64,000 bases of DNA from Phycisphaerae bacterium. Its GTDB lineage: Bacteria > Planctomycetota > Phycisphaerae > Phycisphaerales > UBA1924. A program made the position numbers and the translations under genes. The notes beneath the pieces are model-generated. The model was not told the origin of the DNA. It searched no databases and saw only the letters and a list, made by a program, of their open reading frames with translations. The stretch is taken from contig PAKY01000064.1 in the NCBI GenBank assembly GCA_002706885.1, positions 1 to 64,000 on the forward strand, in the 5' to 3' direction. Positions 7,404 to 50,904 of this stretch are shown in pieces (positions within the stretch are counted from its first letter, which is position 1; each line of letters starts with the position of its first letter).

Positions 7404-8609
7404 TTAGGGACAGCCCTGCGCGTAGCCCTGAAGGAACATCACCACGTCGGCGATGTCGAACACACCGTGCGGGCCCGCGTAGTCGACCCGAGCGTCGCTC
7501 GCGGCGAAGAAGGTCAGGAACGCGATCACATCGGCGAGATCAACTTGACCGAACGGGGCCGCAAGGTCCACCGGTGAACAGGGGACGGCGCCGAAGGTGT
7601 TGCCGCCCATGTCAGTGGTGGCGCCGGATCGATCGGCGGGCGCGTTGTTCGAGAATCGCGAGCCACCGAACACGACCTGGCCATCGCCGCCGCCGTGAAG
7701 GGCGCCGCTGTTCGCCGCGGCGTCGTTGCCGACGACGTCGGTATCGATGATGGCGATGACGGACCCGTCACCGGCGTAGGCCGCGGCGCCTTCGCTTGCG
7801 GTGTTGAATCGGAACTCGGTAGCGGTGACGTTCACGGTCGCGCCGTCCTCTGCGTAGAGGGCGCCGCCCATGCCCGAGACGTTGCCCGACATCGAGCCAC
7901 CCGTGAGCTCGAGGCCGCCGTTGACGACCGCGATCGCGCCCCCGACACCCGCGCTGTTGGTCGCGAAGGTTGAGTCGACGAGGGTGACGAGCGTCGGCTC
8001 GAAGCCCTCCGGCGCCACCATCAGGCCGCCGCCGAGATCGGCCAGGTTCGACTTGAACGTGCAGGACTGGAGCGTGGGGTGCGAGCCGCACGACGCAAAG
8101 GCGCCGCCGCCCGAATCCGCGACGTTGTCCTTGAACGTCACGCGACGGAGGGTCGGCTCGCCGATGAGGAACGCGCCGGCGCCGTTGGTGGCGTGGTTGT
8201 CGAGAATGATCGCATCCTCGAGCGTGACGCTGCCGCGGAGGAAGGCGCCGCCGCCGTTCTCACTCGAGCCGCCCCGGACGGTCAGACCGCGGATGACCGT
8301 CGCGGCCTCCTCGCTGTCCGACAGGACCAGCACGACGGGACCGGTCCCGCCGCCATCGACGACGGTGTTCGGAGCGCCGTCGACGCCGACCACCGTCAAT
8401 GCCTTGTTGCGAATCGCGAACCCGCCGTATGTGCCGGCGGACACACGGATCTCCCCCCCCGGCTCGGCCGCGTCAACGGCGGCCTGAATCGTTGCATAGT
8501 CCTGCGGGACGAGGTAGAGAGACTCCGCCTGTCCCGCGGTCGCGACAAGACTGGTCGCCGCGACGCTCGCCCAGCCGAGGCTGAGCCCGAAACGAGTAAG
8601 CTGTGACAT
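7404..8609 (-). CDS. Secreted Pmp-like parallel beta-helix protein with C-terminal GC-type dockerin
   Basis: A 401-residue exported protein. The chosen ATG (8609) begins MSQLTRFGLSLGWASVAAT..., a signal peptide ending near AGQAES, with a CGGGGG site upstream. Frames further upstream lack signal-like sequence. After YATIQAAVDAAEPGGEIRV, the standard entry of secreted right-handed beta-helix proteins, come repeated GGGAF / FxDN-type rungs like those of polymorphic membrane proteins. The last ~60 residues hold two contiguous dockerin-like halves bounded by Cys: PCSPVDLAAPFGQVDLADV and GVFDIADVVMFLQGYAQGCP. This dockerin type is characteristic of Phycisphaerae; its binding partner is not known to me. 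The protein may bind or modify polysaccharide, but no catalytic residues can be named. Confidence 0.82.
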   Translation of the reverse strand: MSQLTRFGLSLGWASVAATSLVATAGQAESLYLVPQDYATIQAAVDAAEPGGEIRVSAGTYGGFAIRNKALTVVGVDGAPNTVVDGGGTGPVVLVLSDSEEAATVIRGLTVRGGSSENGGGAFLRGSVTLEDAIILDNHATNGAGAFLIGEPTLRRVTFKDNVADSGGGAFASCGSHPTLQSCTFKSNLADLGGGLMVAPEGFEPTLVTLVDSTFATNSAGVGGAIAVVNGGLELTGGSMSGNVSGMGGALYAEDGATVNVTATEFRFNTASEGAAAYAGDGSVIAIIDTDVVGNDAAANSGALHGGGDGQVVFGGSRFSNNAPADRSGATTDMGGNTFGAVPCSPVDLAAPFGQVDLADVIAFLTFFAASDARVDYAGPHGVFDIADVVMFLQGYAQGCP

Positions 8610-35609: not shown

Positions 35610-37874
35610 TCAACGGCCTGCGAGTGCCCGCGCGATCGCGTCCGATACCGCGTCGGCGATCACGCCGCTCCCCGCCGGGAGCATGTGAACGCCGTCCGAC
35701 GTCGTCACGCCCTTCTCGAGCCCGTCCGGATTGTGCTCCGCGAGATACGCGAAGAACGGCCCGCGCAGATCGCAGACCGTCACCCCGTAACGCTCCGCCA
35801 CGCGTCGACCGATCGCGGCGTACTTGTCGAGTTCACCATCCAACTCGTTCGCCCCGCGCGACTTCTCGCCGATCACGCTCGGCGACGCGAGCGCCACCCG
35901 CGTTCCGCTCTCGAGCAACGTCGAGATGAGCTCATCGAGCCCCGACTCGAACGCCTCGGGCGTCGTCCCGCTCGGCGTCGGCTTCTTCCAGTGCCACACG
36001 TCGTTAATCCCGACGTACACGACAACAAGCGTCGGATCGAGCTCGACCACGTCCTTCTGCACTCGACCGAGCAGGTCCGAGATCTTGTTCCCGCCGATGC
36101 CACGGTTGACAAGCTCGACCTCGAGCCCGGGCCGATCCGAGGCGAGGCGTTCGCGTATCAGATCGATGTACTGACCGCCCTGCGTGATCGAATCGCCGAA
36201 GAAGACGATCCGATCGCCATCCCGAAGCGGCGTCGTTGGGCGATAGAGGGCGTCCGGATCGGCCGTCAGCATCGTCGTGCTCCACTCCGCGTTCGCGTCC
36301 GCCGGCCAGATCCGAAGCAGTGACACACCGTGCGGTCGCACGCGCGAGCGTACCGCGCCCGACGCATCCGCCAGGTCTGACTGGCGCCACAAGTCACGGA
36401 CCCGCGCGGTCCCCGTGATGCCGAGCGTCGAGAAGTCCGCGACCACCTCGGCGCTCTCGTCCGAACGGTTGAACAGGCCGACCGCGATCGACCCGTCGCT
36501 CATCGGCTTCGCGATCACGCGCGTGTCACCCTCGCTCGCGACCGTCCGGGCCATCAGGCCGAGCGAATCCCGATTCACCGCGAGGACCTCGTCGTTGGTG
36601 AGCAGGCTCAGCGTAAAACGATCGATCCGCTCGACCGGGCATCCGATCAGCAGCGGCGATGACCAGAGGCACCACAGCGAGATGTGCGTGTACTGCTCGT
36701 CGGGCGTCAGCCCCGACGCCGCCGGCTCGCCCGACCAGCTCACGTCGCCGACGACCAGCATGTCCGCGTCCGGGAAGAACCCCGGGCGCGTGTACGGTCG
36801 CCAACGCTCGTGGCGGTCCCAGATCTCCACGAGCCCCCACGCCCAGTCCTCGTACGGCCAGTCCGCCGCCTTCGTCCAACGGTCGCGGATGTCGCCCGTT
36901 GTGCGCGCCACGTTGCTCAGCGCCGAGAGTTCCGAAGCGTGCTCGAAGGGCGCCGAGTTGGAGAGCGAAAGCGTGATGTCCCGCCCGGTGGCGTTCAACG
37001 CCTCGCGGATCCGCCTGGTCGTCGGCGGATCGTTGGGATGCCAGTCGTACTTGAGGTAGTCGAACCCCCAGTCCGCGAACTGCGCCGCGTCGTTCTCGAC
37101 AAAGCTGTACGCACCGATGCGCTTCTCGTCGCGCAGCGATTCGTCCCACGAGCCGTCCTCGCGGTCGCTCGAGCCACCGATGTACCGCGCGTAGGAGGAA
37201 ATCCACGGCGTCGAATAGATCCCCGCCTTCAGGCCCGCGTCGTGGACCTTCTCGACGAACCCCGCCATATCGGGGAACCGCTCGTTCGGCACGATCGCGT
37301 GGTGCTCACCGCCCCGCGCGTTGCCCTGCCACGTGTCGTCGATGTTGATGAACGTCCAGCCGTGGTCGATCAGCCCCGACCGCACGAACGCGTCTGCCGA
37401 CGCCTCGACGTTCGCCTGCGTGACCTTCCAGCTCCAGCAGTTCCACGAGTTCCACCCGAGCGGCGGCGTGAGCCCCGTCGTCTCGCCGATCCGAAACACG
37501 ATCTCCGCCTCAGCCGTCCCGAGATCGTTCGCGGCGCGGACCGTCACCGGATAGTCGCCGGCCTCGTCGATCGCGCCGAGGATCACGCCGCTGTCGGGAT
37601 CGATGCGCAGTCCCCTCGGCAGATCAGCTTCGTAGCGGATCGGCGCTGCGCCGCTCGCGGGGACCTTGAAACGCACGGGCGACCCGGGGCGGACGCCGAA
37701 GACGCGCGCGCCATTGATCCGCGGCTCGCGCGGCGGGCGCGGCGTGAGGATGTGCCGATCGTTCGCGTTCGACTCGACCCACTCGGGCCATGGCATGCGT
37801 TCCGGTTCCCGCGCATTTGCCGAGCCGCTCCCCATCACCACGAGACACATGAACACCATCGCGATCGTCTTCAT
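35610..37874 (-). CDS. Exported alpha-galactosidase (GH27) fused to an SGNH/GDSL esterase
   Basis: A 754-residue secreted two-enzyme protein. A signal peptide (MKTIAMVFMCLVVMGSGSANA) is followed by a putative Ig-like domain (~55-130, YEADLPRGLRIDPDSGVILG). A GH27 catalytic domain spans ~135-520: PPLGWNSWNCW, FINIDDTWQG, YLKYDW with nucleophile Asp277, and TTGDI with acid/base Asp328. The last ~210 residues are an SGNH hydrolase: FFGDSITQ with Ser562, NRGIGGNKISD, VYVGINDVWHW and SDGVHML with the Asp-His pair. Predicted to remove alpha-galactosyl side groups and an ester (for example acetyl) from a polysaccharide such as acetylated galactomannan. It sits between GH26 and FGE genes, with 33-base gaps on each side. 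Confidence 0.9.
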   Translation of the reverse strand: MKTIAMVFMCLVVMGSGSANAREPERMPWPEWVESNANDRHILTPRPPREPRINGARVFGVRPGSPVRFKVPASGAAPIRYEADLPRGLRIDPDSGVILGAIDEAGDYPVTVRAANDLGTAEAEIVFRIGETTGLTPPLGWNSWNCWSWKVTQANVEASADAFVRSGLIDHGWTFINIDDTWQGNARGGEHHAIVPNERFPDMAGFVEKVHDAGLKAGIYSTPWISSYARYIGGSSDREDGSWDESLRDEKRIGAYSFVENDAAQFADWGFDYLKYDWHPNDPPTTRRIREALNATGRDITLSLSNSAPFEHASELSALSNVARTTGDIRDRWTKAADWPYEDWAWGLVEIWDRHERWRPYTRPGFFPDADMLVVGDVSWSGEPAASGLTPDEQYTHISLWCLWSSPLLIGCPVERIDRFTLSLLTNDEVLAVNRDSLGLMARTVASEGDTRVIAKPMSDGSIAVGLFNRSDESAEVVADFSTLGITGTARVRDLWRQSDLADASGAVRSRVRPHGVSLLRIWPADANAEWSTTMLTADPDALYRPTTPLRDGDRIVFFGDSITQGGQYIDLIRERLASDRPGLEVELVNRGIGGNKISDLLGRVQKDVVELDPTLVVVYVGINDVWHWKKPTPSGTTPEAFESGLDELISTLLESGTRVALASPSVIGEKSRGANELDGELDKYAAIGRRVAERYGVTVCDLRGPFFAYLAEHNPDGLEKGVTTSDGVHMLPAGSGVIADAVSDAIARALAGR

Positions 37875-37907: not shown

Positions 37908-39710
37908 TTACTGGCAGCCCGCGAGCAGTTCAGCCATGAACGCGTTGACGTCGTCGCCATCGAGCACGCCGATCGGCGCCGCGACATCCGCCGCGCCGCA
38001 CTGGGCGGGCTCGGTGAGCGGGCTGATCCGGAGCGTCGCGTTCTGAAACGCGTTCGCGCCGTAGAGCTGGACGCCCCACCCGCGGACATCGCTTGGGTGT
38101 GCGAGCGTCTGCGGATCGATCGAGAGTGCGTTCTCGACCGCGGTCGCAACCCCCGCGACGGGCCCCTCGTGCCAGACCCACCCGGGTCCAGTCTGGGCAA
38201 AGAGAACGCCGCTGCTGAATGACTGACTGACCGGCTCGACGAAGAGTCCGAGGGCCGCGAAGCCCGAGGCGCTCACAGCGCGGGTGGACTGGATCGCGAC
38301 GAACCCCTCGGACGAGGCGGTCACTGAGACGAGCACCGCGTCGTTGCCGTCGGGCGAGACGCTGTTCACCGACCCGAGCCACGCGGTCTGAAAGCCGAGT
38401 AGGTCGCTCTGATCGATCGGCGAGTCCGTGCCGCCGTCGCACCCGGCCCCGAACCGGCGGGCGTACTCGATGGCGTCGAACGCGTCGGCGACGCCTATCG
38501 GTTCGGCGATATCGGAGGACGAGCATCGCGCCACCGTCGCGTAGATGTCGCCGAACTCGGCGCGCATCTCGGCGAAGTGGTTGATCTCATCGGTCGCGAG
38601 GAAGGCGTTGAAGTCGGCTCGGGCCGCAGCGGGCGCGTTCGGGGGCGGGATGTAGAACTGGTCGGCGCCCCAGTTCGCCCACGTCAGGGCGTAGGCGACA
38701 TCGCTCGCCGAGGGCGCGAGCTCGGCGTAGACGCGACCGTGCCACCAGTCGTTGCCCGCGCCGCCCGCCTGCGCGAGGCCCTGGGCGCCCATCTCGGTGT
38801 AGGCGACGATCTTGCCGTCGGCCTGACCACGCGTTATCGCGTAGCTGAGGGGCGTCGAGAACTCGGGGTTCTGATCGAACGGGCTCCGGTACTGATCGCC
38901 GCCGCAGATGTCGACGTAGTCGGCCTGGTACCAGCGGTCGTAGTAGTTCTGGCTGCTTGGCCAGTTCGGGCTGTAAGCCCAAAGCAGGTTGTGGAGGTTC
39001 CTGGTATCGCGGAAATACTCGACGGTCATGCGCCAGAGCGCCATGTACTCCTCGGGCGATGACCAGTTCCACCAGAAGCCCGCGGTGGCCTGGCCGCTGC
39101 CGTTGACCTGGAGGAAGCCAGGCTCGTGGTACGGACGCATGATGATCGGGATGGGCGTGCCGTCAGCGTGGAGTTGCTCGAGCATGTCGGCGAAGGGGTC
39201 GAGGTAGTTGTCGACGTAATGGTCGTGCAGGTCGCCTCCGGGGAGGAGCCTCGGAACCGCGGGCTCGTCGTCGTGGCGGTCGTAGTTGTTGCCAGGCTGT
39301 CCTTCGAGCGCGGGGTTGGGAAGGTGCCAGCAGAAGCCGATGAACGCGCCCTCCTCGTACTGCTGGCGGATGCGGTTCACGGCGGCGAAGTTCGTCGTGT
39401 AGTTCCCTGCGGATCCGTTGAGGGCGACGATCCAGTCCCACTCATGAAACGCGGGGCGGGAGCCCGCGGTGGCTTCCCAGTCTGAGATGACGACCTGGCC
39501 CGTGTTCTGCACGGCGCTGGCCCAGTCGGCGAGGTGCTGGCCGAACTGGATGGTCGGCGCGGCGGTCATCGCCTGGAGCGCCGCGTGGAGCGAGCGGGTC
39601 TCGGCGGTGAGATCGGGGTCGATCGGCTCAGCGCTCGGCGTTGGCCCCGCGTACGCGTGTACGGCGGCGAGCGTGATGGCGAGGGCGGCGGCGTCGCGGA
39701 TGCGGTTCAT
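37908..39710 (-). CDS. Exported GH26 beta-mannanase with split GC-type dockerin modules
   Basis: A 600-residue secreted glycoside hydrolase predicted to cut beta-1,4-mannan internally. The ATG at 39710 gives a signal peptide (MNRIRDAAALAITLAAVHAYA) and follows GGGAG; upstream frame is unconserved. GH26 signatures: QFGQHLADW near 55, IIMRPYHEPGF with acid/base Glu196, GFWWNWSSPEEYMALWR, LLWAYSPNW, and IVAYTEMGAQG with nucleophile Glu306. Residues ~396-424 (RCSSSDIAEPIGVADAFDAI...GAGC) and ~571-600 (QCGAADVAAPIGVLDGDDV...AGCQ) are two dockerin-like halves flanking a beta-sandwich domain. First gene of a GH26, GH27-SGNH, FGE operon. Mannan is the commonest GH26 substrate, but others exist. Confidence 0.88.
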   Translation of the reverse strand: MNRIRDAAALAITLAAVHAYAGPTPSAEPIDPDLTAETRSLHAALQAMTAAPTIQFGQHLADWASAVQNTGQVVISDWEATAGSRPAFHEWDWIVALNGSAGNYTTNFAAVNRIRQQYEEGAFIGFCWHLPNPALEGQPGNNYDRHDDEPAVPRLLPGGDLHDHYVDNYLDPFADMLEQLHADGTPIPIIMRPYHEPGFLQVNGSGQATAGFWWNWSSPEEYMALWRMTVEYFRDTRNLHNLLWAYSPNWPSSQNYYDRWYQADYVDICGGDQYRSPFDQNPEFSTPLSYAITRGQADGKIVAYTEMGAQGLAQAGGAGNDWWHGRVYAELAPSASDVAYALTWANWGADQFYIPPPNAPAAARADFNAFLATDEINHFAEMRAEFGDIYATVARCSSSDIAEPIGVADAFDAIEYARRFGAGCDGGTDSPIDQSDLLGFQTAWLGSVNSVSPDGNDAVLVSVTASSEGFVAIQSTRAVSASGFAALGLFVEPVSQSFSSGVLFAQTGPGWVWHEGPVAGVATAVENALSIDPQTLAHPSDVRGWGVQLYGANAFQNATLRISPLTEPAQCGAADVAAPIGVLDGDDVNAFMAELLAGCQ

Positions 39711-39817
39711 GCGCAGCTTCTCCCGTGCTGATGATCGTTTGGCGATGACAAGGGGCCACCGCGAAGCCCGCTCCCACCCGGCGTCGATGGGAGCGAGGAT
39801 ACCATACATGAATACGT

Positions 39818-39839
39818 CGATGAAAATATTTTCTCATCG
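39818..39839. promoter_or_regulatory. AT-rich inverted repeat upstream of the GH26 operon
   Basis: CGATG at 39818-39822 and CATCG at 39835-39839 flank an AT-rich core containing AAAATATTTT, in the 176-base gap before the GH26 start. Locally low GC and dyad symmetry suggest an operator or promoter region. It does not match the LacI-type motif seen at 50928, and no good -35/-10 pair could be fixed. Confidence 0.35.
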
Positions 39840-39886
39840 GGGTTTCGGCCACTTCTGGGGTTCTGTATAGTCATTCGGTTCCCCGT

Positions 39887-41185
39887 TCAGGCGCCTGTTC
39901 CGTGGCGCGACGCTACGAGCGAGAGACAGCGGGTGGTGTGGTAGCACGATTTCCAGTTCGAGGCCTTCACGCCGCCATGCTTGCGAACCTCTCCAGACGC
40001 GTCGGTCGCCCACCACCAGCCGCCGCGCACGTAGTCAACGAGATGTCCATTTGCGAATCGCTGGACGCCTTCGAGGGCATTGGTGAGGCGTTTGCGGTCG
40101 GCATCGAGAAGCGGGTCAACGTCATCGGGTCGTGCACTGACAAGCAGATCGAGCGTGTTCATCGCTTCGGCCTGCGCCCACCAGATCTTGTCGCGGACGA
40201 GCGCGGGCCTGGACGCGGGGCCTTCGCTGAACAGACCGCCGTGTTCGGCGTCGAAACCGAAGGTCGTCGCGTGGCGCGCGATGCGGTCGGCCACGCGCCA
40301 CGACGCGCGTCGCTCATCGAGATCGCCGAGTGTCTCGGCGGCGTCGATGAGCAGGAACGCGAGTTCGAGGTCGTGGCCGTACGAGCTGAGCGAAGGCATG
40401 GGAGTCCAGTCCGGCGCGTAGATGGCGTGGACGGAGCCGTCGTGGCCGACGAGGCGATCCCTGAGCAGGTGGAGCAGCACACGGAGGCGATCGCGGACGC
40501 GGTCGGGTCCGCCGGCGCGGATGAGTTCGGCGCAGGCTTCGAGGGCGTGGAGATGGCCGTTGAGCGATCGCATGCCGAAGGGCGTCGAGATCGCGTCAAG
40601 GGCTCCGACGAAGGGCGGATTGGGGACGAGGCCATCGACATCAAGCGGTTCGGCGTAGCCATCGCTCTGCCACGCGACGGCTTCGAGCCAGTCGAAGCTC
40701 TCCACCGCCGCGGTGAGCCATCGATCGGCGTGCTCGAGGCCGGTCCTCGAGGCGTTGGCGAGGGAGAAGATCGCAAATGCCTGTCCGTAGAGGTGCTTGC
40801 CCTCGTTTTCGAGGCGGGCGCCGTCGGCGGTGACGAGCCAGTGGAAGCCGCCGCGGGCGGGGTCGCGGAAGACGTCGAGAAGGGCGGCGGCGGCGCGTTC
40901 GGCGTGGGCGGCGAGCCAGGCGGCGCGGTCGCCGCGTGTGCGCACGAGTTCAGAAGCGGCCCAGAGCATGCGGGCGTGGAAGACAAGGGACTTGTCGCCT
41001 CCGGGCGACGGGCGCCAGTCGGCGTCGAGGTCGGGGACGTAGCCGAAACGCTCGGTGTCGATCGCCGCATCGAAGAGCGGTTCGATCTCTGCCCACAGCA
41101 CGCGTTCGGTCCAATTGGGGTCCAAGGCTGCGGTCCTCCGTTCGCGGGCTGCCAACCGTGGGCGGCGGTTCGCGGGGTCGTTCAT
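39887..41185 (-). CDS. AGE-family epimerase (cellobiose/mannobiose 2-epimerase-like)
   Basis: A 432-residue cytosolic (alpha/alpha)6-barrel enzyme predicted to epimerise the C2 of a reducing-end glucose or mannose, either free or in a disaccharide. The ATG at 41185 gives MNDPANRRPRL; the frame is open far upstream but unconserved. Signature residues: RSLNGHLHALEACAEL, SSYGHDLELAFLLIDA with His271, DKIWWAQAEAMNTL, and NWKSCYHTTR with His416. The SxGHDxE motif is typical of cellobiose 2-epimerase relatives. It is divergent from the beta-mannosidase gene with only 45 bases between the starts, which supports handling of manno-oligosaccharides or mannose. Confidence 0.86.
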   Translation of the reverse strand: MNDPANRRPRLAARERRTAALDPNWTERVLWAEIEPLFDAAIDTERFGYVPDLDADWRPSPGGDKSLVFHARMLWAASELVRTRGDRAAWLAAHAERAAAALLDVFRDPARGGFHWLVTADGARLENEGKHLYGQAFAIFSLANASRTGLEHADRWLTAAVESFDWLEAVAWQSDGYAEPLDVDGLVPNPPFVGALDAISTPFGMRSLNGHLHALEACAELIRAGGPDRVRDRLRVLLHLLRDRLVGHDGSVHAIYAPDWTPMPSLSSYGHDLELAFLLIDAAETLGDLDERRASWRVADRIARHATTFGFDAEHGGLFSEGPASRPALVRDKIWWAQAEAMNTLDLLVSARPDDVDPLLDADRKRLTNALEGVQRFANGHLVDYVRGGWWWATDASGEVRKHGGVKASNWKSCYHTTRCLSLVASRHGTGA

Positions 41186-41230
41186 CGAAGGTAACGCGCC
41201 GTGTTCCCGGCGGATGCCCGTTGATTTGGC

Positions 41231-43831
41231 ATGTTCACGAGAAAGGCGCACAACGTGCGAGATGCAGTCGAAAAGTTTGCCGCGAGGGAGCGGCTGGACC
41301 TGTGCGGGGGGTGGAAGCTTCGCGCGGTCGATGTCGCCGAGGGGGCGCCGGCTTCGATCGGCGGGGCCGAGTTCGACGCGACCGTGCCGGGTTGCGCGCA
41401 CACCGACGTGCTCGCGGCGGGGGTGATCGAGGATCCGTTCGTTGACCGCAACGAGGGCGCCGCGGCTTGGGTTTCGGAGACGACGTGGTCGTATGTGCGC
41501 ACTTTCAACGTTGTACGCGCGTTTGACAGCGATCGGGTGGACCTCGTGTGCGACGGGCTCGACACGCTCGCGGTCATCCGCGTGAACGGGGTGGAGGTCG
41601 GGCGGTCTGAAAACATGCACGTCGCGTATCGGTTCGATGTCCGCGACGCGTTGCGCGCCGGCGAGAACGAGATCGAGATCGTGTTCGAGGCGGCGCTGCC
41701 CGCGGCGCGGCGGCTTGCGGCCGAACATGGCGATCTGCCGATCGGACCGCTCGGGACGAACCCGATGCAGCCTCACAACGCGATCCGGAAGATGGCGTGC
41801 TCGTACGGGTGGGACTGGGGGCCCGCGCTTCCGTCGGTGGGTGTGTGGCGTCCGATCGCGATCGAGGCGTGGTCGGGCGCACGGATCGCTTCGGTGCGTC
41901 CATTGGTGCGTGTGGCCGAGCCCGAGACGGCGCTGATCGAGGCGTTCGTGGATCTCGAGCGGTTCGGCGACGACGGTGTGGTCGTCGAGCTTGCGCTGCG
42001 GGACTCGGACGGCGCAGTTGCGGCGCGGGCGTCGGTCGACGCGGGAGTCGGGACGACGACTGTGTCGGCTGACCTGAGCATCTCGCGACCGAGGCTGTGG
42101 TGGCCCGCGGGGTACGGGGACCAGCACTTGTACACGCTGGACGCGACGGTTCGGCGGGGCAGCGAGACGCTCGACGCGTGGTCAAAGTCGGTGGGCGTGC
42201 GGACAGTCGATCTGGTCAATGAACCGGAGCCCAACGCGGAGGACCCGAAGAGCGAGTTGATGTATCTGCGGGTGAACGGGCGGCGGGTGTTCTGCAAGGG
42301 GGCGAACTGGATCCCGGACGACTGTTTCCCGACGCGGATCACTCCGGAGCGGTACCGCGAGCGTGTGCGTCAGGCGGCGGACGCGAACATGAACATGCTG
42401 CGCGTGTGGGGCGGTGGGATCTACGAGTCGGAGGTGTTCTACGACGCGTGTGATCGGGCGGGTGTGATGGTGTGGCAGGACTTCCTGTGCGCGTGCGCCG
42501 CGTACCACGAGAAGGAGCCGTACTGGTCGTGGTTCGAGGAGGAGGCGCGGCAGAACGTCGCGCGGCTGAGCCGCCACGCGAGTTTGGTGCTGTGGTGCGG
42601 GAACAACGAGTGCGTCGAAGCGGTCGAGGGGTGGGGCGAATTCGAATCGCTGCGCGAGGATCCGTCGATTCCTTGGGGGAAGCGGCTCTACAACGAGTTG
42701 TTCCCCACGGTCGTTCGCGAGGTTGATCCGTCGCGGCCGTACTGGCCCGGCAGCGGTCACTCGACGGCGGAGGGTGATCGGGCGGTGAACGAGCGGACGG
42801 GAGACGTACACATCTGGGATGTGTGGAACGGGGGGAAGAGCGGGTTCGGGTACCTGCGGCATCGCCCGAAGTTCGCGTCGGAGTTCGGGTTTCACGGGCC
42901 GCCGACGTGGGTCGCGATTGAGGAGGCGATCCCCGAGGGCCAGCGGCGGTTCGATTCGCCAGCGATGGTGCACCACAACCGACACGCGGGCGGGCAGGCG
43001 CTCGCGAACACGCGTATGGCAGACTTCTTCGACCCGCCCGCGGACTTTGACGACTGGCTGTACGCGGCGCAGGTCGTGCAGGCGCGGGCGCTCGAGATGG
43101 GGTGCGAGTGGTTCCGCGCCTTGTCGCCCGTGTGCTCGGGTTCGCTGTACTGGCAGCTCAACGACTGCTGGCCTGTCGCGAGTTGGGCGGCGATCGATGG
43201 GATGGGTCGGCCGAAGCCGCTGTGGTTCGCGACGCGCCGGTTCTATCGGCCGCGGCTCGCGACGATCCGCCCGACGCGACCGACCGAGCTCGGGGCGGCG
43301 TGCGACGAGCTGTCGCTCTACCTGCACAACGACTCGAATGGGGGTTGGGGCGGGGAGTTCTCCGTTGAAGCTCGCTCGGTGCTGGGCGATCAGAAGCGGG
43401 CGCTCGCGGAGGGCGTGTTCGAGGTTGAAGCGCGGGGAGGGCGTCGGTTCGACATGCCGCGGGTGGCGCTCGAGCGGGACGAGTTCCTTGTCGCTCGGGC
43501 GGGGCATGAGCGGGCGTACTGGTTCCCGCACCCGGATCGGGAGATGCCGTACACGGCGGCGGGGATCGAGTGGTCGCTCGCGAGGACGAAGCGCGGGCTG
43601 CGGCTGATCGGATCGTGCGAGACGCTGGTGCGCGATCTGTGCGTGTTCGCGGACCGGCTCGATCCGGAGGCGATGGTGAGCGATCAGCTCATCACGGCGC
43701 TCCCGGGGGACACGATCGAGGTCTCGATCCGGACGGATCGGGACCTGACGCTCGGGGACCTGACGTCGGCGCCCGTGTGTCAGTCGGCGGACCGGTTCGG
43801 CGCCGGGCAGGCGGCGAGGTCGGTACGTTAG
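41231..43831 (+). CDS. GH2 beta-mannosidase
   Basis: An 866-residue enzyme predicted to release mannose from the non-reducing ends of beta-manno-oligosaccharides. No signal peptide is evident, so it is probably cytosolic. The GH2 layout is complete: N-terminal sugar-binding-like domain (~20-200, including GTNPMQPHNAIRKMACSYGWDWGPAL, characteristic of beta-mannosidases), Ig-like domain, and TIM barrel with NWIPDDCFP, RVWGGGIYE, LVLWCGNNE (acid/base Glu460) and KFASEFGFHGPP (nucleophile Glu551). SGSLYWQLNDCWPVASWAAID is also a beta-mannosidase hallmark. The ROK kinase gene follows after 4 bases, so the two are co-transcribed. Confidence 0.93.
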   Translation: MFTRKAHNVRDAVEKFAARERLDLCGGWKLRAVDVAEGAPASIGGAEFDATVPGCAHTDVLAAGVIEDPFVDRNEGAAAWVSETTWSYVRTFNVVRAFDSDRVDLVCDGLDTLAVIRVNGVEVGRSENMHVAYRFDVRDALRAGENEIEIVFEAALPAARRLAAEHGDLPIGPLGTNPMQPHNAIRKMACSYGWDWGPALPSVGVWRPIAIEAWSGARIASVRPLVRVAEPETALIEAFVDLERFGDDGVVVELALRDSDGAVAARASVDAGVGTTTVSADLSISRPRLWWPAGYGDQHLYTLDATVRRGSETLDAWSKSVGVRTVDLVNEPEPNAEDPKSELMYLRVNGRRVFCKGANWIPDDCFPTRITPERYRERVRQAADANMNMLRVWGGGIYESEVFYDACDRAGVMVWQDFLCACAAYHEKEPYWSWFEEEARQNVARLSRHASLVLWCGNNECVEAVEGWGEFESLREDPSIPWGKRLYNELFPTVVREVDPSRPYWPGSGHSTAEGDRAVNERTGDVHIWDVWNGGKSGFGYLRHRPKFASEFGFHGPPTWVAIEEAIPEGQRRFDSPAMVHHNRHAGGQALANTRMADFFDPPADFDDWLYAAQVVQARALEMGCEWFRALSPVCSGSLYWQLNDCWPVASWAAIDGMGRPKPLWFATRRFYRPRLATIRPTRPTELGAACDELSLYLHNDSNGGWGGEFSVEARSVLGDQKRALAEGVFEVEARGGRRFDMPRVALERDEFLVARAGHERAYWFPHPDREMPYTAAGIEWSLARTKRGLRLIGSCETLVRDLCVFADRLDPEAMVSDQLITALPGDTIEVSIRTDRDLTLGDLTSAPVCQSADRFGAGQAARSVR

Positions 43832-43835
43832 AGCC

Positions 43836-44786
43836 ATGGCGATCGGCGGCATCGATATCGGTGGAACGAAGATCGGGGTTTGCCTCGGCGACACGGACGG
43901 TTCGGTGCTCGCGGGCGAGACGATCGCAACGGCGGACCATCCTGATCCAGCGGCGTTGCTCGGGGTGTGCCTCGAGCGGCTCGACGCGCTCCGGGGCAAG
44001 CACGATGTTTCGATCGAGAGCATCGGGGTGGCCGTTCCCGGGCCGTATGACCGGATGGAGCGGCGGTTCCTCGATCCGCCGAACATGCCTGCATGGCACG
44101 GGTTCGGGATCGGGGCTTGGCTCGACGAACGTGCGCCGGCGGCGTGTCGGGTGATGAACGACGCGAACGCGGCGGCGTACGCGGAGTGGCTGTGGGGTCA
44201 TGAGCGCGGGGCGCACACGCTCGTGTTCCTGACGATGTCGACGGGGCTCGGGGCGGGGATCGTGATCGAGGGGCGCGTGCTCGAGGGGGAGCGCGGGCTT
44301 GGGGGCGAGATCGGGCGTGTGCGGTTGAGCGAGGACGGGCCGGTCGGGTTCGGCGCGTACGGGACCGCGGAGGCGTGGGCGAGCGGGTCGGGGATTCGGC
44401 AGATGGCGGAGACCGAAGCGCTGCGCTGCATGCAGGCGGGCGAGGCGACGGCGTTGCACGATGTCGATGTGCTCGACGCCCGAGCGGTGTGCGAGGCGGC
44501 GTCTCGGGGCGATCGGGCGGCCCTTCGCGTTGTCGCACAGTCCGCGGTTCGGCTCGGGCAATTGATCGGGCTGTTGGCGAACGTGCTGGAGCCGCAGGCG
44601 GTGGTGCTCGGGACGATCGGGGTGGCGTTCCCGGACCTGTTCGTGGGGCCTGCGTTCGAGGAGGCGAAGCGTCACGCGGTGTCAGCGACGATGGAGCGGC
44701 TGCGGGTGTCGGCGAGTTCGCTCGAGCATCGGTGGGAGCGGCAAGCGTTGGCGGCGGGGTTGTACGGGCGGGAAGTCCGGGCTTGA
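43836..44786 (+). CDS. ROK-family sugar kinase lacking the zinc motif
   Basis: A 316-residue protein with the actin-like ATPase fold of ROK sugar kinases: GGIDIGGTKIGVCLGD at residues 3-18, VAVPGPYD, VMNDANAAAYAEW with the catalytic-type Asp, and STGLGAGIVIEGRVLEGERGLGGEIG. There is no winged-helix DNA-binding domain, so it is a kinase rather than a repressor. The usual ROK zinc site (His plus CxCGxxGCxE) is absent; the equivalent region reads GEIGRVRLSEDGPVGFGAYGTAEAWASG. It follows the beta-mannosidase by 4 bases and probably phosphorylates mannose or glucose released there. The substrate and the effect of the missing zinc site are unknown. Confidence 0.85.
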   Translation: MAIGGIDIGGTKIGVCLGDTDGSVLAGETIATADHPDPAALLGVCLERLDALRGKHDVSIESIGVAVPGPYDRMERRFLDPPNMPAWHGFGIGAWLDERAPAACRVMNDANAAAYAEWLWGHERGAHTLVFLTMSTGLGAGIVIEGRVLEGERGLGGEIGRVRLSEDGPVGFGAYGTAEAWASGSGIRQMAETEALRCMQAGEATALHDVDVLDARAVCEAASRGDRAALRVVAQSAVRLGQLIGLLANVLEPQAVVLGTIGVAFPDLFVGPAFEEAKRHAVSATMERLRVSASSLEHRWERQALAAGLYGREVRA

Positions 44787-44831
44787 GCGGGCGGCGCCGA
44801 TAACGCGTGATCGGACGATGCCCGAATTGCG

Positions 44832-44860
44832 TCGAACACGGCGTGCTCATCAGGTAAAAT
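44832..44860 (+). promoter_or_regulatory. Possible promoter of the LacI-family gene
   Basis: TAAAAT at 44855-44860 is a fair -10 element in otherwise GC-rich DNA, with a weak -35 candidate TCGAAC at 44832-44837 (17-base spacer). It is about 140 bases upstream of the GTG at 45001. Support rests mainly on the -10. Confidence 0.35.
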
Positions 44861-45000
44861 GTTTGCAGCGAGCGCCGGGTTCGGGCGCGCTGGAGGCACA
44901 CCGTTGCGGATCCGTTCGACGATCGCGGAGGGGGACGACCCCGGCTCGGCGCGTGTGACGCGTTGGTCGGCCCCGGCTTCGCGCGGAGAGGACGGCTTCC

Positions 45001-46032
45001 GTGGGTGAACAGCCGTCGCTGAAGCGTGTCGCGCAGTTGTCAGGGGTGAGCGTCTCGACGGTGAGCCGGGTGCTCAACGACCCGGAAGCGCGGCTGCCCG
45101 TGAAGGCGGAGACGCGGAAGCGGGTGCTCGAGGTCGCGGACAGCCTGGACTACCGCCCGAACCCGATGGTGCGGACGATCCGGGCGAAGCTGACGAACCT
45201 GATCGCGATCGTGGGGTTCCGCGACTTCGGCGCCGCGTTTCGTGGGCCGAGCGAGGAGGCGATCAACTCGTTTACGGAGTTCGCGTACGAGCACGGCTAC
45301 GAGTTGTGCACGAACCTGCTGAGCCCCTCTACGGATCCGTACGAGCTGCCTCGGTGGCGTGTGGACGGAGCGGTGGTCGTGGACTGTCCGGACGCGGCGT
45401 TGCTGTCGAGCATCGAGAACTCGGGGACGCCGTACGTCTCGATCAACGGGGTCGCGGGGAAGACGGGATCTTCGGTCCGCGTGGACGATCGTCACGGGGC
45501 GGCGGACCTGACGGCGCACCTGCTGCGGCTCGGGCATGAGCGGATCGCGTATGTGGCGCAGGACCCGGCGTGTCGGGCGAAGTCGCTCGAGAAGCAGCCG
45601 CATCACACGAGCTTCTTCAACCGTCACTCGGGGTATCTCGAAACGCTTCAGGCGGCGGGGGTCGAGCCGTTGACGCCCGAGCCGCCTGAACCGACGTCGG
45701 CGCGTGAGGCGGTCGAGGCGTGCGTGCGGCGTCGGGGCGCGACCGCGCTGATCGTGTACGACCACATGACGGCGGTGAAGGCGCTCAACGCCATCGCGGG
45801 GCTCGGGCTTCGCGTGCCGGAGGACGTAAGCGTCGGATGCTTCAACGACCTGTTCCCGCTGTCGGACCTGACGCCGAGCGTGACCGCGGTCGGGCTGCCT
45901 GCGGAGGAGATGGGGCGGCTCGCGGCGGAGATGCTGATCGCGAAGATGCGGAGCAGCGACGACAAGCCGCAGACGGTCGTGTGCCCGGAGGAACTGGTGA
46001 TCCGGAACTCGACGGCGGCGCCGCGGAGTTGA
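45001..46032 (+). CDS. LacI-family transcriptional regulator
   Basis: A 343-residue repressor-type regulator. The N-terminal helix-turn-helix is SLKRVAQLSGVSVSTVSRVLNDPEARL at residues 5-31, and the hinge and ligand-binding (periplasmic-binding-protein-like) domain follow (YRPNPMVRTIRAKLTNLIAIVG, DGAVVVDCPDAALLS, DDRHGAADLTAHLLRLGHERIAYV, SVGCFNDLFPLSDLTPSVTAV). The GTG at 45001 is the first start before the HTH. It lies downstream of the beta-mannosidase and ROK genes, and so probably controls the glycan genes. A LacI-type operator occurs at 50928 over the promoter of the pilin-like gene, but binding by this protein is inference. Confidence 0.92.
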   Translation: MGEQPSLKRVAQLSGVSVSTVSRVLNDPEARLPVKAETRKRVLEVADSLDYRPNPMVRTIRAKLTNLIAIVGFRDFGAAFRGPSEEAINSFTEFAYEHGYELCTNLLSPSTDPYELPRWRVDGAVVVDCPDAALLSSIENSGTPYVSINGVAGKTGSSVRVDDRHGAADLTAHLLRLGHERIAYVAQDPACRAKSLEKQPHHTSFFNRHSGYLETLQAAGVEPLTPEPPEPTSAREAVEACVRRRGATALIVYDHMTAVKALNAIAGLGLRVPEDVSVGCFNDLFPLSDLTPSVTAVGLPAEEMGRLAAEMLIAKMRSSDDKPQTVVCPEELVIRNSTAAPRS

Positions 46033-46035
46033 CGG

Positions 46036-48390
46036 CTAGCGGACGCGGGTGATCTTCGCGGCGAGCGAGGCCTCGAGCGTTGGCATGGCGAAGACGAGTT
46101 CGCCCTCGTCGCGGCGTGCCGGCGCCCGATCGATGACGGCGCCGGTCTGGGTGTCGATCCACTCGACCTCGTAATCGCCACGATCAAATCCGGGAAGCGT
46201 CAGCGTGACGCCCGAGATCGGACCGGGATCGATGCCGGCCCGCTTGGCGCCCCAATGGAAGTCGCGGTGGCGTGCCCAGACGAGGGCGGCGGTGGTTCCC
46301 TTTGGAGCGTCGGCGTCGCCGATGGCGGTGAGCCAGACGGGGGTCATGCCCGGACCGATGACGCCTTCGAAGCGGTAGGACGTGTACGCCCAGTCCTTGC
46401 CCGTGTCGATGATCTCGATGGAGCGGGCGCCGGCGGGGATGGTCGCGGTGTAGTCGCCGTTGAATTGGGACATCTCGGACTTGTCGGCCTCGTCGTCGTC
46501 GTCGAACGACCACGAGGTAAGCGGTTCGTCGTCGACGCGGACCTCGATGCGCGAGCCGCCCCACCCCGAGACGCCGCGGACGGAGACGACGAGGGCGCCG
46601 GGGTGCGTGGGCTCGTCGAACTCGAAACGGATGGGGTTGCCGCGGTCGAGGGCCGTGGGATGGATCAGGCCCGGGACGCGCTCGGGGTGATCGAGTTGGC
46701 CGAAGCGATCGACGCGGACGGTGTTGGGCTGGTTCCAGGGGGCGGGGCGCCAGGAGTTGGCGGCGCCGGGGATGCGGAGGGCGTCGGATTCTGAGGCCGC
46801 TCCTCCCCGCGACGCGACACGGCAATCGATCGGCGAGAGTTCGAGCTTGTTGAGCGGAACATCGGCGACGAGGTCGGCGAGGGGCGTGAAGTAGCGGTTC
46901 CAGTGATCGCGTTCGCCGTGGGACCAGTACCAGTAGAGGGCGCCGCCCGCGGAACCGCTCGTGAGGCCGGCCCAGAGCGCGTTGTGCACGGCGATGCGTT
47001 CGGGGCCGTAGGCGGCGTCGGCGTTGGAGCTGTCGAACTCCTGGTTGCCGAACTCGCCGACGAGGTGAGGCTTGCGGTGGCGGTCCCACTTGTCGCGCGC
47101 GGCGGCGTAGTGGGCGAGGCTGTGGTCCATTGCGTTGTATTCGTGCGTGAACGTGAAGTCGAGTTCGTCGAGACCGTCGAGCGTTCGGTCGCCCTCGGTC
47201 CACCAGGTGCTGGTGGCGACGAGATGCTCATGCGGGTCGATGGACTTGAGATAGCCCGCCATCTCGGCGTGCCAGGCGGCGCAGGCCCCGGAGTCGTAGT
47301 CGTCGACGCCGCTGACCTCGTTCCAGAGTTCCCAGCACATGACGGCGGGGCTCGCCCCCCAGCGGGCGACGATGTACCGCAAGCGGCGCTTGTTGAGTTC
47401 GCGAACGAAGGGATCGGTGAAGACGTCGCCCGCGTTCTCGATCGGGCCGCCGTTGACGGCGTTGTAGGGCGACTCGTGCCAGTTGCGGGGGAAGGCGACA
47501 CCTCGCCAGCCGCTGAAGCTGAAGGCGACGGGGATGACCTTCACGCCGAGGACCTCGGCGGTTTCGACGATGCGGTCGACGCGCGCGGCGGCGGACTGGT
47601 TCATCCACCCGAGGCCGCCGGCGTGGCCGAACTCGTCGAACTTCTCGGAGGTCTCGAGGCTGAGGTGGTGGAAGCACGGGCCGAGCCAGAATCGGAGGGT
47701 GTTTCCGTCGTTGGCGGCGAGGTTGATGAGGGTGCGGTCGACGTTAAAAACGCCGAGGTCGCTGCCTGGCCATGCGTGGTTGAGGCCGATTGGGAAGAAG
47801 AGCGAGCCGTCGTCGTGCTCGAAGTAGCGCGAGTTGTTCTCACTGACGCGGACGAAGCCGGGAGCGGGCGTCGCGGGCGTGACGCAGTCGATTGTGACCC
47901 AGTCGGAATTCACGCGGCGGTCGTCGTCGGTGACGACGATGCGGACGCGGTGGGCGCCGGGCTCGGTGAGCGTGAGGCGAAGGCGCCAGCCTCGTTCGCC
48001 GGTCGGCGTCAGGGCCTCGGCGTCGTTGACGACGGCGGCATGGTGGTCAACCGCGTAGAAGGCGGGCATGGAGTGTGTACGGCCGCTGGGGGTCCTGATC
48101 TCGGCGTCGACGGCGATGTCGGTCGGGTCGAAGGGGTTGGACCACGTTCCGCTGACGTCGATGGGGAGTTCGAATCGCTCGTAGAGCTCCGCTACCCGGA
48201 TGCGTGAGGCATCGATGCTGGCGGCGGGATCGCCCTTGCTCGCAAACGCGGCGCGCTGATCGTTGGTGGCGGCCCAGTGAGCGTCGCGGTCGCGGAGGGC
48301 GCTTCGCGTGCCGACGGATGGCGCGGCGTGAGCGATCGAGGTGAGCGTGATGGCGGCGAGGGGAGCAATAGCTCGGAGGAGGATGAGCAT
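46036..48390 (-). CDS. Exported GH5-like (clan GH-A) glycoside hydrolase with N-terminal Ig-like domain
   Basis: A 784-residue secreted protein. A signal peptide (MLILLRAIAPLAAITLTSIAHAA) precedes an Ig-like/DUF5060-type domain (~65-170, VAELYERFELPIDVSGTWSNPFDP). The central TIM barrel has FFPIGLNHAW near 203, NTLRFWLGP, MCWELWNEVSG (acid/base Glu358) and PHLVGEFGNQ (nucleophile Glu446), plus ALYWYWSHGERDHWNRYFTPL. The C-terminal ~230 residues are beta-rich (SVRGVSGWGGSRIEVRVDDEPL), perhaps carbohydrate binding. Substrate cannot be read from sequence; the neighbouring mannan genes make a beta-mannan or glucomannan plausible. It is convergent with the LacI gene, with stops 3 bases apart. Confidence 0.82.
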   Translation of the reverse strand: MLILLRAIAPLAAITLTSIAHAAPSVGTRSALRDRDAHWAATNDQRAAFASKGDPAASIDASRIRVAELYERFELPIDVSGTWSNPFDPTDIAVDAEIRTPSGRTHSMPAFYAVDHHAAVVNDAEALTPTGERGWRLRLTLTEPGAHRVRIVVTDDDRRVNSDWVTIDCVTPATPAPGFVRVSENNSRYFEHDDGSLFFPIGLNHAWPGSDLGVFNVDRTLINLAANDGNTLRFWLGPCFHHLSLETSEKFDEFGHAGGLGWMNQSAAARVDRIVETAEVLGVKVIPVAFSFSGWRGVAFPRNWHESPYNAVNGGPIENAGDVFTDPFVRELNKRRLRYIVARWGASPAVMCWELWNEVSGVDDYDSGACAAWHAEMAGYLKSIDPHEHLVATSTWWTEGDRTLDGLDELDFTFTHEYNAMDHSLAHYAAARDKWDRHRKPHLVGEFGNQEFDSSNADAAYGPERIAVHNALWAGLTSGSAGGALYWYWSHGERDHWNRYFTPLADLVADVPLNKLELSPIDCRVASRGGAASESDALRIPGAANSWRPAPWNQPNTVRVDRFGQLDHPERVPGLIHPTALDRGNPIRFEFDEPTHPGALVVSVRGVSGWGGSRIEVRVDDEPLTSWSFDDDDEADKSEMSQFNGDYTATIPAGARSIEIIDTGKDWAYTSYRFEGVIGPGMTPVWLTAIGDADAPKGTTAALVWARHRDFHWGAKRAGIDPGPISGVTLTLPGFDRGDYEVEWIDTQTGAVIDRAPARRDEGELVFAMPTLEASLAAKITRVR

Positions 48391-48428
48391 GTGAAGGGGT
48401 GTCCTCGGTGGCGGTGCGATCGGGCTGG

Positions 48429-48462
48429 AAAAACGCCCCCGTCGTTTCCGGCGGGGGCGTTT
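48429..48462 (-). terminator. Rho-independent terminator after the 48518 gene
   Basis: An 11-base stem (AAACGCCCCCG at 48431-48441 with CGGGGGCGTTT at 48452-48462) and a 10-base loop. Read on the minus strand it ends in TTTTT (48433-48429), so it terminates the dockerin-protein transcript before the GH5-like gene, which therefore needs its own start site. Confidence 0.85.
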
Positions 48463-48517
48463 GGTTGAAGAGGTTCGTTACCGCGTCACACGTGTCGCGG
48501 GCCGAGGTGATTGAGGA

Positions 48518-49711
48518 TTAGGGGCAGCCGGCGTTGAACGCGCGGACGTGCTCGAGGATGTCGAAGGCGTCGTACACGCCGATGGGCTCGACGAGATCGG
48601 TCGGGCCGCACGGGAGGCCCTCGCCGACGGGGCGGACGCGGAGCTCGAAGTTGGTCGAGCTGAGCTCGGAGCCGTCCGGACCGAAGACCTGGATGTCGAT
48701 CTCGCGGATGTCTTCGGGCGTGGCCAGGACGGAGGTGTCGAGGAAGATGGTCATCGGCTCGCCCGAGGTGAGGTCGACGCTGTCGCCCGCGACGAAGAAG
48801 AAGGTCGGGCCTTCCTTGACGACGAGACGAGCCTGACTCGCTTCGCCGCTCAGGAGTTGGACCTCGAGCTCGATGGTGTCGTTGGCGGAGGCGTCCACGA
48901 CGGGATTGGTGGTGAGGAAGCCGAAGGTATTCTCGCTGAAGCCGTCGTTGTCGAGCAGTTCCGCGTCGACGACGACGCCGTTGCCGGAGGCTGCGACGCC
49001 GTTGAAATCGCCGGTGATCTCGCTGAAGCCGAGGAGCGCGTCCTGGAAGAAGGTCAGCGGGTTCATGCCGATCACGTTCGCGGGCTCGCACGGCATGGTG
49101 GACTCGGCGAGCGCGGCCATGGTGTCGGCGGCGTCGAGGACGCCGAAGGGTTCGGCGACGTCGGCCGCGTTGCAGGGCGGGGGCGTGGAGGGCTCGACGC
49201 GGAAGACGATCGGCGTCTCACTCGGGAACAGGGCGCCCGGCCCGAAGGCCTGGAAGCCGACGCGGGCGACCTGGTCGGCGCCGACGATACCTGTGAGGGG
49301 AACGGTGAGTTCGACGGGCTCGAGGAGGGTCCACTCGGCAGAGACCGACCCCTCGATGAATGTAAAGCCACCCATGCCGTCGGCGGTCTGGATGAACATC
49401 ACGGCGTTCAGGAACGGCGTGTTGACCTCGATGGGATCGATGGTGAGGGTGAAGACATCGGCGCCGGAGGCGTCGATCGGCGCGCCGAAGAAATCCCATG
49501 AGATGACGATTCGGGAGAAGTCGTCCTTGTCGCCCAGGTCGCCGTCGATCAGCACACCGAACTCATCGGGCGTGAACGAGTCAACCGTGCCGGCGCCGAA
49601 GGGGACGATCGGGTTCGCGAGCTGCGCGGGCGTGAGCGTGATCTCCTGGGCCGACGCGGCGCCGATGAGGAGGGTGAGAGCCATGGCTTGAGTCAGAACG
49701 TTGGTCCGCAT
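48518..49711 (-). CDS. Exported two-module beta-sandwich protein with two GC-type dockerin halves
   Basis: A 397-residue secreted protein. A signal peptide (MRTNVLTQAMALTLLIGAASA) follows a GGGGAG ribosome site. The order is: beta-sandwich (~22-175), dockerin-like half PCNAADVAEPFGVLDAADT (~180-205), second beta-sandwich (~215-365), and terminal half PCGPTDLVEPIGVYDAFDI...FNAGCP. The second sandwich resembles the domain between the dockerin halves of the GH26 enzyme (matching GPTFFFVAGDS and ATPEDIREIDIQVFG to GPGWVWHEGPV and AHPSDVRGWGVQLYG). No catalytic motif is visible; it may be a non-catalytic carbohydrate-binding or scaffold partner. It is preceded by the pilin-like gene on the same strand, 111 bases away. 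Confidence 0.78.
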   Translation of the reverse strand: MRTNVLTQAMALTLLIGAASAQEITLTPAQLANPIVPFGAGTVDSFTPDEFGVLIDGDLGDKDDFSRIVISWDFFGAPIDASGADVFTLTIDPIEVNTPFLNAVMFIQTADGMGGFTFIEGSVSAEWTLLEPVELTVPLTGIVGADQVARVGFQAFGPGALFPSETPIVFRVEPSTPPPCNAADVAEPFGVLDAADTMAALAESTMPCEPANVIGMNPLTFFQDALLGFSEITGDFNGVAASGNGVVVDAELLDNDGFSENTFGFLTTNPVVDASANDTIELEVQLLSGEASQARLVVKEGPTFFFVAGDSVDLTSGEPMTIFLDTSVLATPEDIREIDIQVFGPDGSELSSTNFELRVRPVGEGLPCGPTDLVEPIGVYDAFDILEHVRAFNAGCP

Positions 49712-49822: not shown

Positions 49823-50764
49823 TCAGTACGCGGTCTTCCAACGCCTGAAGAACGGGTTGCCCAGGTCCCAGAGCCAGGGTCCGATCTCGTCGTCCCGGAA
49901 GGTGAGTTCTTCCTGGTCGAAGACCTGGACGTGACCGTCGGCCATCACCATGTTGGCCTCGGACCAGAGCTCGGTGGCGAGTTCGATGTTGTCGCGGTCG
50001 CCGCGCGCCCAGGTGTACGGGACGACGCCCGTCGGCAGCATGTTGTTCGAGTCCTTCGCGCCGTGGCGGAAGCCCGGGAGCATGACGGCGAAGTTCTGGT
50101 CGCTGGTGTGATCGACGGCGACCATCGTCTGGAGGTGACGCTCGGTGGATTCACCGATCACGATGCAGTTGGACGGGACGGGCGGGGCGGTCCTCGCGTA
50201 GTCCCACTTGCCGCCGAACGGGCGGCCGTAGGTCTGCCCGTTGATATCGTCGGGGATCGTCATGTAGTGGTTGAGGGCGTAGCTGTAGACGTCGCCCGCC
50301 CAGTACTGGTCATCGACGCCGACGCCCGAGCCGCGGTTCTGAAGGGTGAGGTTGTCGGAGTTGTCGCTGCGTGACGGGCAGTTGAGAACCCAGCCCTTCT
50401 TGAAAGCGAGAACGCCGACTTGCGGTCCGTCCTGGCGTGCTTCCTGCGGGGCATCGAGGTAACTGATGATGTTGCCCTGCCAGATCTCATCCCAGCCGTA
50501 CCACGGGTCGGGGTCGCCGAGCTGCTGACGCTCAAGCGCTGCGTAGCGATCGCGGTTCTCGTTGGCGTACATCTCGTTGGCGATGCCGACGGTGCGGAGG
50601 TTGCTCTGGCAGACGACGGCCTTGCCCGAGCGTCTTGCCTGCCCAAGCGCTGGCAGGAGGATGCCGATCAGCAGCGCGATGATGGCGATGACGACGAGGA
50701 GCTCGATGAGCGTGAACCCGTTGCGTCGTCGTGCCGCGTTATGGGAACCGTTCTTCAGCGTCAT
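49823..50764 (-). CDS. Type II secretion/pilin-like protein (prepilin N-terminus, H-X9-DG type)
   Basis: A 313-residue protein. The ATG at 50764 has GGAGG upstream and places the class III prepilin signal where expected: [34 protein letters not shown], with cleavage before Phe17 and Glu at +5. The remainder is soluble, with [27 protein letters not shown] after the helix and a C-terminal region ([11 protein letters not shown] ... [13 protein letters not shown]) of the H-X9-DG type that is greatly expanded in planctomycetes. Function in those bacteria is uncertain: a pseudopilus or a surface glycan-handling role has been considered. It has its own promoter with a LacI-type operator and precedes the dockerin-protein gene, suggesting co-regulation with glycan use. 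Confidence 0.86.
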
Positions 50765-50904
50765 GGGATCCTGGCCTCCGTTCCGATCGCCGATTCGAGG
50801 TGAGAACCACCGCTCCGACGCCCGGCGCGAGCGGCGCGCCGGACCACCGCGAAAAGGGTTCGCACGGGGCAGATGGCCCCAAAACGCCTTCCGCAATTAA
50901 TTTC

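Follow-up and report, generated by a model that had tools for sequence, protein, structure and literature searches.

Dockerin halves separated by a carbohydrate-binding-like sandwich in two proteins of a Phycisphaerae bacterium

Two window proteins with non-adjacent dockerin halves

Dockerins are taken as compact, contiguous modules, and annotation searches are carried out accordingly. Here we describe two proteins in which two halves of a GC-type dockerin (family NF041540) lie on either side of a beta-sandwich domain. Both are encoded in positions 1-64,000 (forward strand) of contig PAKY01000064.1 of Phycisphaerae bacterium GCA_002706885.1, a draft assembly of 127 contigs of a 91%-complete genome; the whole of this 64,000-nucleotide stretch is referred to as the window. 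One gene (37908-39809, minus strand) encodes a GH26 enzyme and the other (48518-49711, minus strand) a product called here the 48518 protein. Each is a continuous open reading frame (ORF) with a signal-peptide-like N terminus.

The GH26 protein is built of a catalytic domain followed by a dockerin half and then of a sandwich followed by a second half, all on the minus strand. The beta-mannanase catalytic domain (38514..39623), placed at residues 63-432 by alignment with PDB entries, matches PF02156 (E=6.9e-24, 85.2 bits, above the cut-off of 20.2 bits), its best PDB match being the beta-1,4-mannanase 2bvt (E=4.8e-32). Half 1 (CSSSDIAEPIGVADAFDAIEYARRFGAGC, residues 429-457, 38439..38525), which we call type A for its DAFD motif, was recognised by half-repeat profiles made from the two-repeat domains of the same genome. 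The inter-half sandwich (residues 458-603, 38001..38438) resembles a mannanase carbohydrate-binding module (CBM), with a PF21253 match (E=1.7e-4, 22.3 bits) below the cut-off of 27 bits and, in a Foldseek search with the model, a match to the mannanase CBM of 1WKY (E=2e-5). Half 2 (CGAADVAAPIGVLDGDDVNAFMAELLAGC, residues 604-632, 37914..38000), of non-DAFD type, ends 1 residue from the stop and matches both a half-repeat profile and, partially, NF041540.

The 48518 protein consists of a sandwich and a half, twice over, and thus has an extra related sandwich upstream of its half 1. This N-terminal sandwich (residues 22-179, 49175..49648, minus strand, as are the other parts) is related to both other sandwiches of the window (aligned to them at z about 8-9, a score that none of 1000 shuffles reached; profile match of 20 bits). 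It is followed by the non-DAFD half 1 (CNAADVAEPFGVLDAADTMAALAESTMPC, residues 180-208, 49088..49174; half-repeat profile match), the inter-half sandwich (residues 209-367, 48611..49087; PF21253 E=9.3e-9, 36.1 bits, above the cut-off) and half 2 of type A (CGPTDLVEPIGVYDAFDILEHVRAFNAGC, residues 368-396, 48524..48610; partial NF041540 and half-repeat profile matches), again 1 residue from the stop. The order of the two half types is therefore the reverse of that in the GH26 protein. Compared crosswise, half 1 of one protein and the final half of the other are alike, with 17 and 16 of 29 residues identical in the two pairings, versus 10-12 in the other comparisons.

The half starts are 175 residues apart in the GH26 protein and 188 in the 48518 protein, versus a repeat period of 28 in 86 of 89 intact domains of this genome. 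For comparison, the beta-helix protein at 7404 carries an adjacent two-repeat GC-type dockerin (7410..7580, minus strand; NF041540 42.9 bits, curated cut-off 29 bits), which measures 57 residues from Cys to Cys. Reading of the ORFs thus bears out the contrast between adjacent and separated halves that had been drawn in an earlier, sequence-only reading of this DNA.

That reading had also taken the two flanked sandwiches to be homologous and had treated their unrelatedness as fatal to the idea; they prove homologous on alignment, with 30% identity, a z of about 15 relative to shuffles and a PF21253 signal in both. The top Foldseek match of the GH26 tail model was 1WKY, which also came first, although weakly (E=0.011), for the 48518 tail. 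By sequence profile and modelled fold, the window sandwiches are thus assigned to the relatives of mannanase carbohydrate-binding domains (PF21253). In other Phycisphaerae, relatives of the window sandwich are found in secreted proteins with two sandwiches, in which ordinary dockerin-like repeats and PEP-CTERM-like tails form the end.

Each of the four window halves measures 29 residues from Cys to Cys and follows the motif C-x3-D-x3-P-x-G-x2-D-x2-D-x11-C, with the key Cys, Asp, Pro and Gly positions fully conserved. As every half bears both cysteines, neither protein is a simple cut of a Cys1...Cys2 domain. The canonical 12-residue calcium loop DxNxDGxxDxxD is absent from all four, and in its place there is a 13-residue variant, DxxxPxGxxDxxD, which is standard among the high-scoring tags of the genome. 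A segment of EF-hand-loop-like appearance directly after half 1 of the GH26 protein (DGGTDSPIDQSDLLGFQTAWLG) was considered as part of a hidden full two-repeat dockerin; it gave no repeat-profile match and, on visual alignment, fell on the SPxQxEL with which related sandwiches begin, and the candidate was rejected by this inspection, with no decisive test.

Structure models of the two tails were weak (predicted local distance difference test, pLDDT, 58.2 and 60.3; predicted template modelling score, pTM, 0.43 and 0.48). They contain a strand-rich domain and, in each half, a loop with one helix; a dockerin core has two helices, so that each half supplies half of it. The absence of an EF-hand-like fold, which would have told against the sequence-only reading, is thus not indicated, although only the final halves of the two proteins were modelled with moderate confidence (pLDDT about 57-80 by block).

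The GC-type dockerin family and recurrence of the split layout

NF041540 has 138 matches in this genome, most of them above the cut-off and nearly all ordinary C-terminal two-repeat tags, and it is found in 160 of the 163 genomes of this Phycisphaerales family. Among the intact two-repeat tags of the genome, 89 of which were extracted with a strict expression, the distance from Cys to Cys is 57 residues in 69, and all end 1-4 residues from the stop. The two window proteins as wholes score below the cut-off (21 bits for the GH26 protein, 14.2 bits for the 48518 protein), as expected if the model needs two adjacent repeats, and neither contains two adjacent loop-helix repeats. The halves, formerly described as dockerin-like, are dockerin halves, and the description can now be refined to this named NCBI family.

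Separation of the halves is an all-or-none property. A half-spacing scan covered 1.45 Mb of loci, most of them chosen because they bear tags, and yielded 170 C-terminal two-half domains, with half starts 30-33 residues apart in 166 and 179, 192, 226 and 230 residues apart in the remaining four; no intermediate value was found. The four split proteins all come from this genome and are the products of four separate genes on three contigs. Of the half-sandwich-half unit, for which the sequence-only reading had proposed a genome search, two further examples thus came to light outside the window, and these contain a different family of sandwich.

The first of them, found by reading an apparent single DAFD tail (contig C104, 14710-16233, minus strand), consists of a sandwich, a half (CSEADLAEPFGLLDAADLMQFVG...), a second sandwich and a final half (...ADINEDETTDAFDVIEFLGLYNMGC). 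The only cysteines of its mature chain, at positions 203 and 456, are located on different halves and correspond to the outer pair of an intact tag. A search with this protein revealed the fourth split at the end of a PF10091 glycoamylase-family enzyme (contig C19, minus strand, 1134-residue ORF), with a weak DUF3466 match; each of its halves retains an EF-hand loop of the canonical 12 residues (DLNGDCVGDAGD, DYNRDGVIDAFD). The halves of these two proteins do not have a closing cysteine pair of their own. Their inter-half sandwiches match each other (z 30), not those of the window (z about 0, with one pair at 3.7); at the level of sequence, the split therefore recurs with two unrelated families of inserted domain.

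Further features are common to the four proteins. All have an N-terminal Cys on half 1 and a C-terminal Cys on half 2, among the last residues before the stop. Exactly one half is of the DAFD type in 4 of 4 split proteins, versus 5 of 94 adjacent domains (hypergeometric 3.5e-5). A looser count, for which some 16 asymmetric two-repeat tags of the genome that pair one DAFD-like half with one other half were collected by hand, gives 7e-4.

The window layout was not found in a second genome, either with P0002 as a query against the 163 family genomes or with the GH26 tail against 301 genomes of the order, and P0002 had no match among plasmids. In the literature searched, which included few subscription journals, we found no dockerin with a domain between its repeats and a single passing mention of half-dockerins.

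One interrupted dockerin or independent halves

We suggest, with moderate confidence, that the two halves are parts of one asymmetric GC-type dockerin which is interrupted between its loop-helix repeats by a carbohydrate-binding jelly-roll and whose halves rejoin. The tags are best read as a variant, split by a domain, of a dockerin family already known, and are carried by products of the mannan locus. Alongside the sandwich, the halves would reunite into a single docking surface, held by the conserved outer cysteine pair. A further staple is perhaps provided in the window proteins by C457 and C604 (GH26 protein) and by C208 and C368 (48518 protein), inner cysteines located at the former linker site. 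Pairing gains support from the 166-to-4 distribution of spacings, the second sandwich family, the outer cysteines of the C104 protein and the rule of one DAFD half per protein. Also in favour of an interrupted dockerin are the canonical loops of the C19 protein, the crosswise similarity of the window halves and the single helix modelled in each half; the carbohydrate-binding role given to the sandwich accords with its 1WKY match and with the mannan-related neighbourhood.

The docking tag and a mannan-binding domain could thereby be held rigidly side by side on a mannanase and on what we infer to be a non-catalytic binding protein of the same locus (the 48518 protein), so that enzyme, substrate and receptor would be co-positioned. 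In the GH26 and C19 proteins the layout might have originated by insertion of a sandwich into the linker. For the 48518 and C104 proteins, whose sandwiches are duplicated, duplication of a sandwich-plus-tag unit followed by complementary loss of one repeat per copy may be suggested. A more general proposal is offered tentatively, as quite possible but short of probable: that a recurrent subclass of dockerin tolerates insertion of unrelated CBMs, that its halves reassemble around a disulfide, and that the CBM becomes part of a docking head for a receptor other than cohesin.

Several observations weigh against rejoining halves. Both cysteines needed for closure are present in every window half, and the inner ones could as well close each half on itself as staple the two, alternatives that sequence does not tell apart. 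Some 30 other proteins end in a single closed unit of the same 29-residue kind. Contact between the halves was not seen in the models, which at pLDDT 58/60 neither show nor exclude it. The sequence-only reading had offered two interpretations, paired halves or halves that bind alone and cross-link two partners, and is partly supported: its "new dockerin arrangement" has gained weight from the spacing scan, while the pairing itself stays conditional. The half types were defined after the window had been inspected, and the non-DAFD class is loose: half 1 of the 48518 protein scores 4.2 as non-DAFD and 7.7 as type A. Moreover, all four splits come from one draft genome, and no partner has been identified in it.

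The closed single units deserve separate description. Their 29 residues equal the usual 57 minus the repeat period of 28. They terminate the other proteins 0-1 residue from the stop, in seven genera of the Phycisphaerales family, this one included, and among all proteins with such units an internal copy occurs only in the two window proteins. With a DNA pattern, 37 matches to the unit were obtained in 13 of 400 genomes of the order, and the reversed control gave 0 among the genomes listed, so the unit is beyond chance. Across 84,980 species the pattern detected single C-terminal units only, all in Phycisphaerales/Planctomycetota except for chance matches and one record (RHKP01000001.1), titled Cyanobacteria, whose unit is identical to that of genome G021 of the same Phycisphaerales family and whose title is probably wrong.

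Single Cys-closed units end unrelated secreted proteins, some directly after a CBM-like sandwich, in genomes G006, G021, G022, G081-G083, G134, G146-G148, G159 and G160. One of them (G083:C40:533652-533738, minus strand) contains an internal in-frame stop, and its gene looks truncated or mis-assembled. In positions 1-5878 of contig C36, four consecutive genes have a single-repeat GC tail of 27-28 residues, three with canonical-length calcium loops; the next gene has a two-repeat tag of the ordinary form.

It could be argued from these units that each half is a complete single-repeat mini-dockerin, with its own disulfide, that binds alone, the window proteins being bivalent or made of tandem domain-plus-tag blocks. 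The 29-residue length, the occurrence of closed units in seven genera and of the shorter tails on contig C36, and the 48518 protein, which is literally a sandwich and a half repeated, are all in keeping with this, as are the single-repeat C-terminal dockerins of group 2 in Ruminococcus flavefaciens FD-1, described in PMC2930009, and the nonduplicated half-dockerins of R. flavefaciens that PMC8063739 cites as functional. On the other hand, elsewhere no stand-alone 29-residue unit is of type A (DAFD) and no ORF has two, the halves of the C104 and C19 proteins lack a closing pair of their own, and complementary half types in 4 of 4 proteins are not expected if halves act alone. We therefore regard independent halves as unlikely, albeit seriously arguable.

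It is less likely still that the layout is a relic, in which a unit of sandwich and two-repeat dockerin was duplicated, one repeat was lost per copy and the internal half has no docking function. The sandwiches are indeed duplicated in the 48518 and C104 proteins, in the 13-residue loops of the window some of the usual Asp ligands are missing, and the proteins concerned score 21 and 14 bits against the required 29. However, the intact key positions of the four window halves, the textbook loops of the C19 protein and the prevalence of the same loop variant in high-scoring tags make such decay improbable. Finally, a spurious spacing, produced by misassembly or by over-reading of degenerate motifs, might be suggested by a 127-contig draft and weak family scores, but is scarcely credible in view of the continuous ORFs, the related sandwiches, the four genes on three contigs, the bimodal spacing and the absence of reversed-pattern matches among the genomes listed.

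Rejoining halves, the reading that we prefer, would make these proteins a natural example of a dockerin with an inserted domain, and a ready-made plan for linking sugar binding with docking. Whatever their pairing, annotation misses split dockerins, which score under the family cut-off.

Probable mannan locus, partner and known systems

Pfam and NCBIfam scans placed several carbohydrate-related families between 35610 and 48390: a GH27-like alpha-galactosidase with a GDSL esterase (35610-37874, minus strand), an AGE-family epimerase (39887-41119, minus strand), a GH2 protein (41231-43831, plus strand), an ROK kinase (43836-44786, plus strand), a LacI regulator (45001-46032, plus strand) and a DUF5060/GH5-like protein (46036-48390, minus strand). 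With the pathway assigned from these family names, the neighbourhood appears to be a mannan-type utilisation locus. Directly upstream of the 48518-49711 gene and on the same strand lies a gene (49823-50896, minus strand) whose product bears an N-methylation motif like that of type IV pilins (PF07963).

The sequence-only reading knew of no partner for the halves, and none emerged from this genome: no Pfam cohesin match exceeded the cut-off, and no homologue of the cohesin-HYR protein of some relatives was found. The best cohesin match, a weak one of 13.2 bits (L042), was discarded as a candidate, being a PEP-CTERM-like protein. Cohesin matches at E<=0.01 occur in 15 of the 163 family genomes and exceed the cut-off in 9. 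The receptor of the split tags is not a recognisable cohesin. Nearly all genomes of this Phycisphaerales family have GC-type dockerins although they usually have no recognisable cohesin, and the split tags sharpen the question of the partner. The genera with single closed units overlap those with cohesin matches (5 of 7, hypergeometric 5e-4, confounded by relatedness); these matches belong mostly to one cohesin-HYR family, a possible receptor lead.

A cohesin-dockerin complex, the 'Planctosome', has been proposed in freshwater Planctomycetes (PMC6461901). It resembles the present case in that Planctomycete dockerins occur outside cellulosomes, there with a cohesin/HYR adaptor; the proposal has cohesins, whereas this genome has neither a cohesin above the cut-off nor a cohesin-HYR homologue.

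Among known half-dockerins, those of R. flavefaciens FD-1 group 2 likewise have one repeat per module and a C-terminal position. They are, however, present as one half per protein, and the text consulted (PMC2930009) mentions no cysteine closure, whereas the window proteins have two complementary halves that flank a domain, one of them internal. Group 1b dockerins of the same species, according to PMC2930009 and PMC5429695, share with the split tags the presence of extra sequence between the repeats; theirs is a linker of 37-45 residues, while the split tags carry a folded domain of about 145-200.

The closest relative is the GC-type dockerin itself (NF041540), with which the split proteins agree in the repeat motif, the N-terminal Cys, the C-terminal GC(P) just before the stop and the secreted nature of their hosts. 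The known domain has adjacent repeats within about 57 residues, in contrast to the window proteins, where a carbohydrate-binding sandwich intervenes and the half starts are 175-188 residues apart. This sandwich in turn resembles, by sequence profile and top fold match, the galactose-binding-like CBM (PF21253) of the mannanase of Bacillus JAMB-602 (1WKY). The latter comprises a catalytic domain and a CBM, whereas in the window proteins dockerin halves flank the CBM-like domain.

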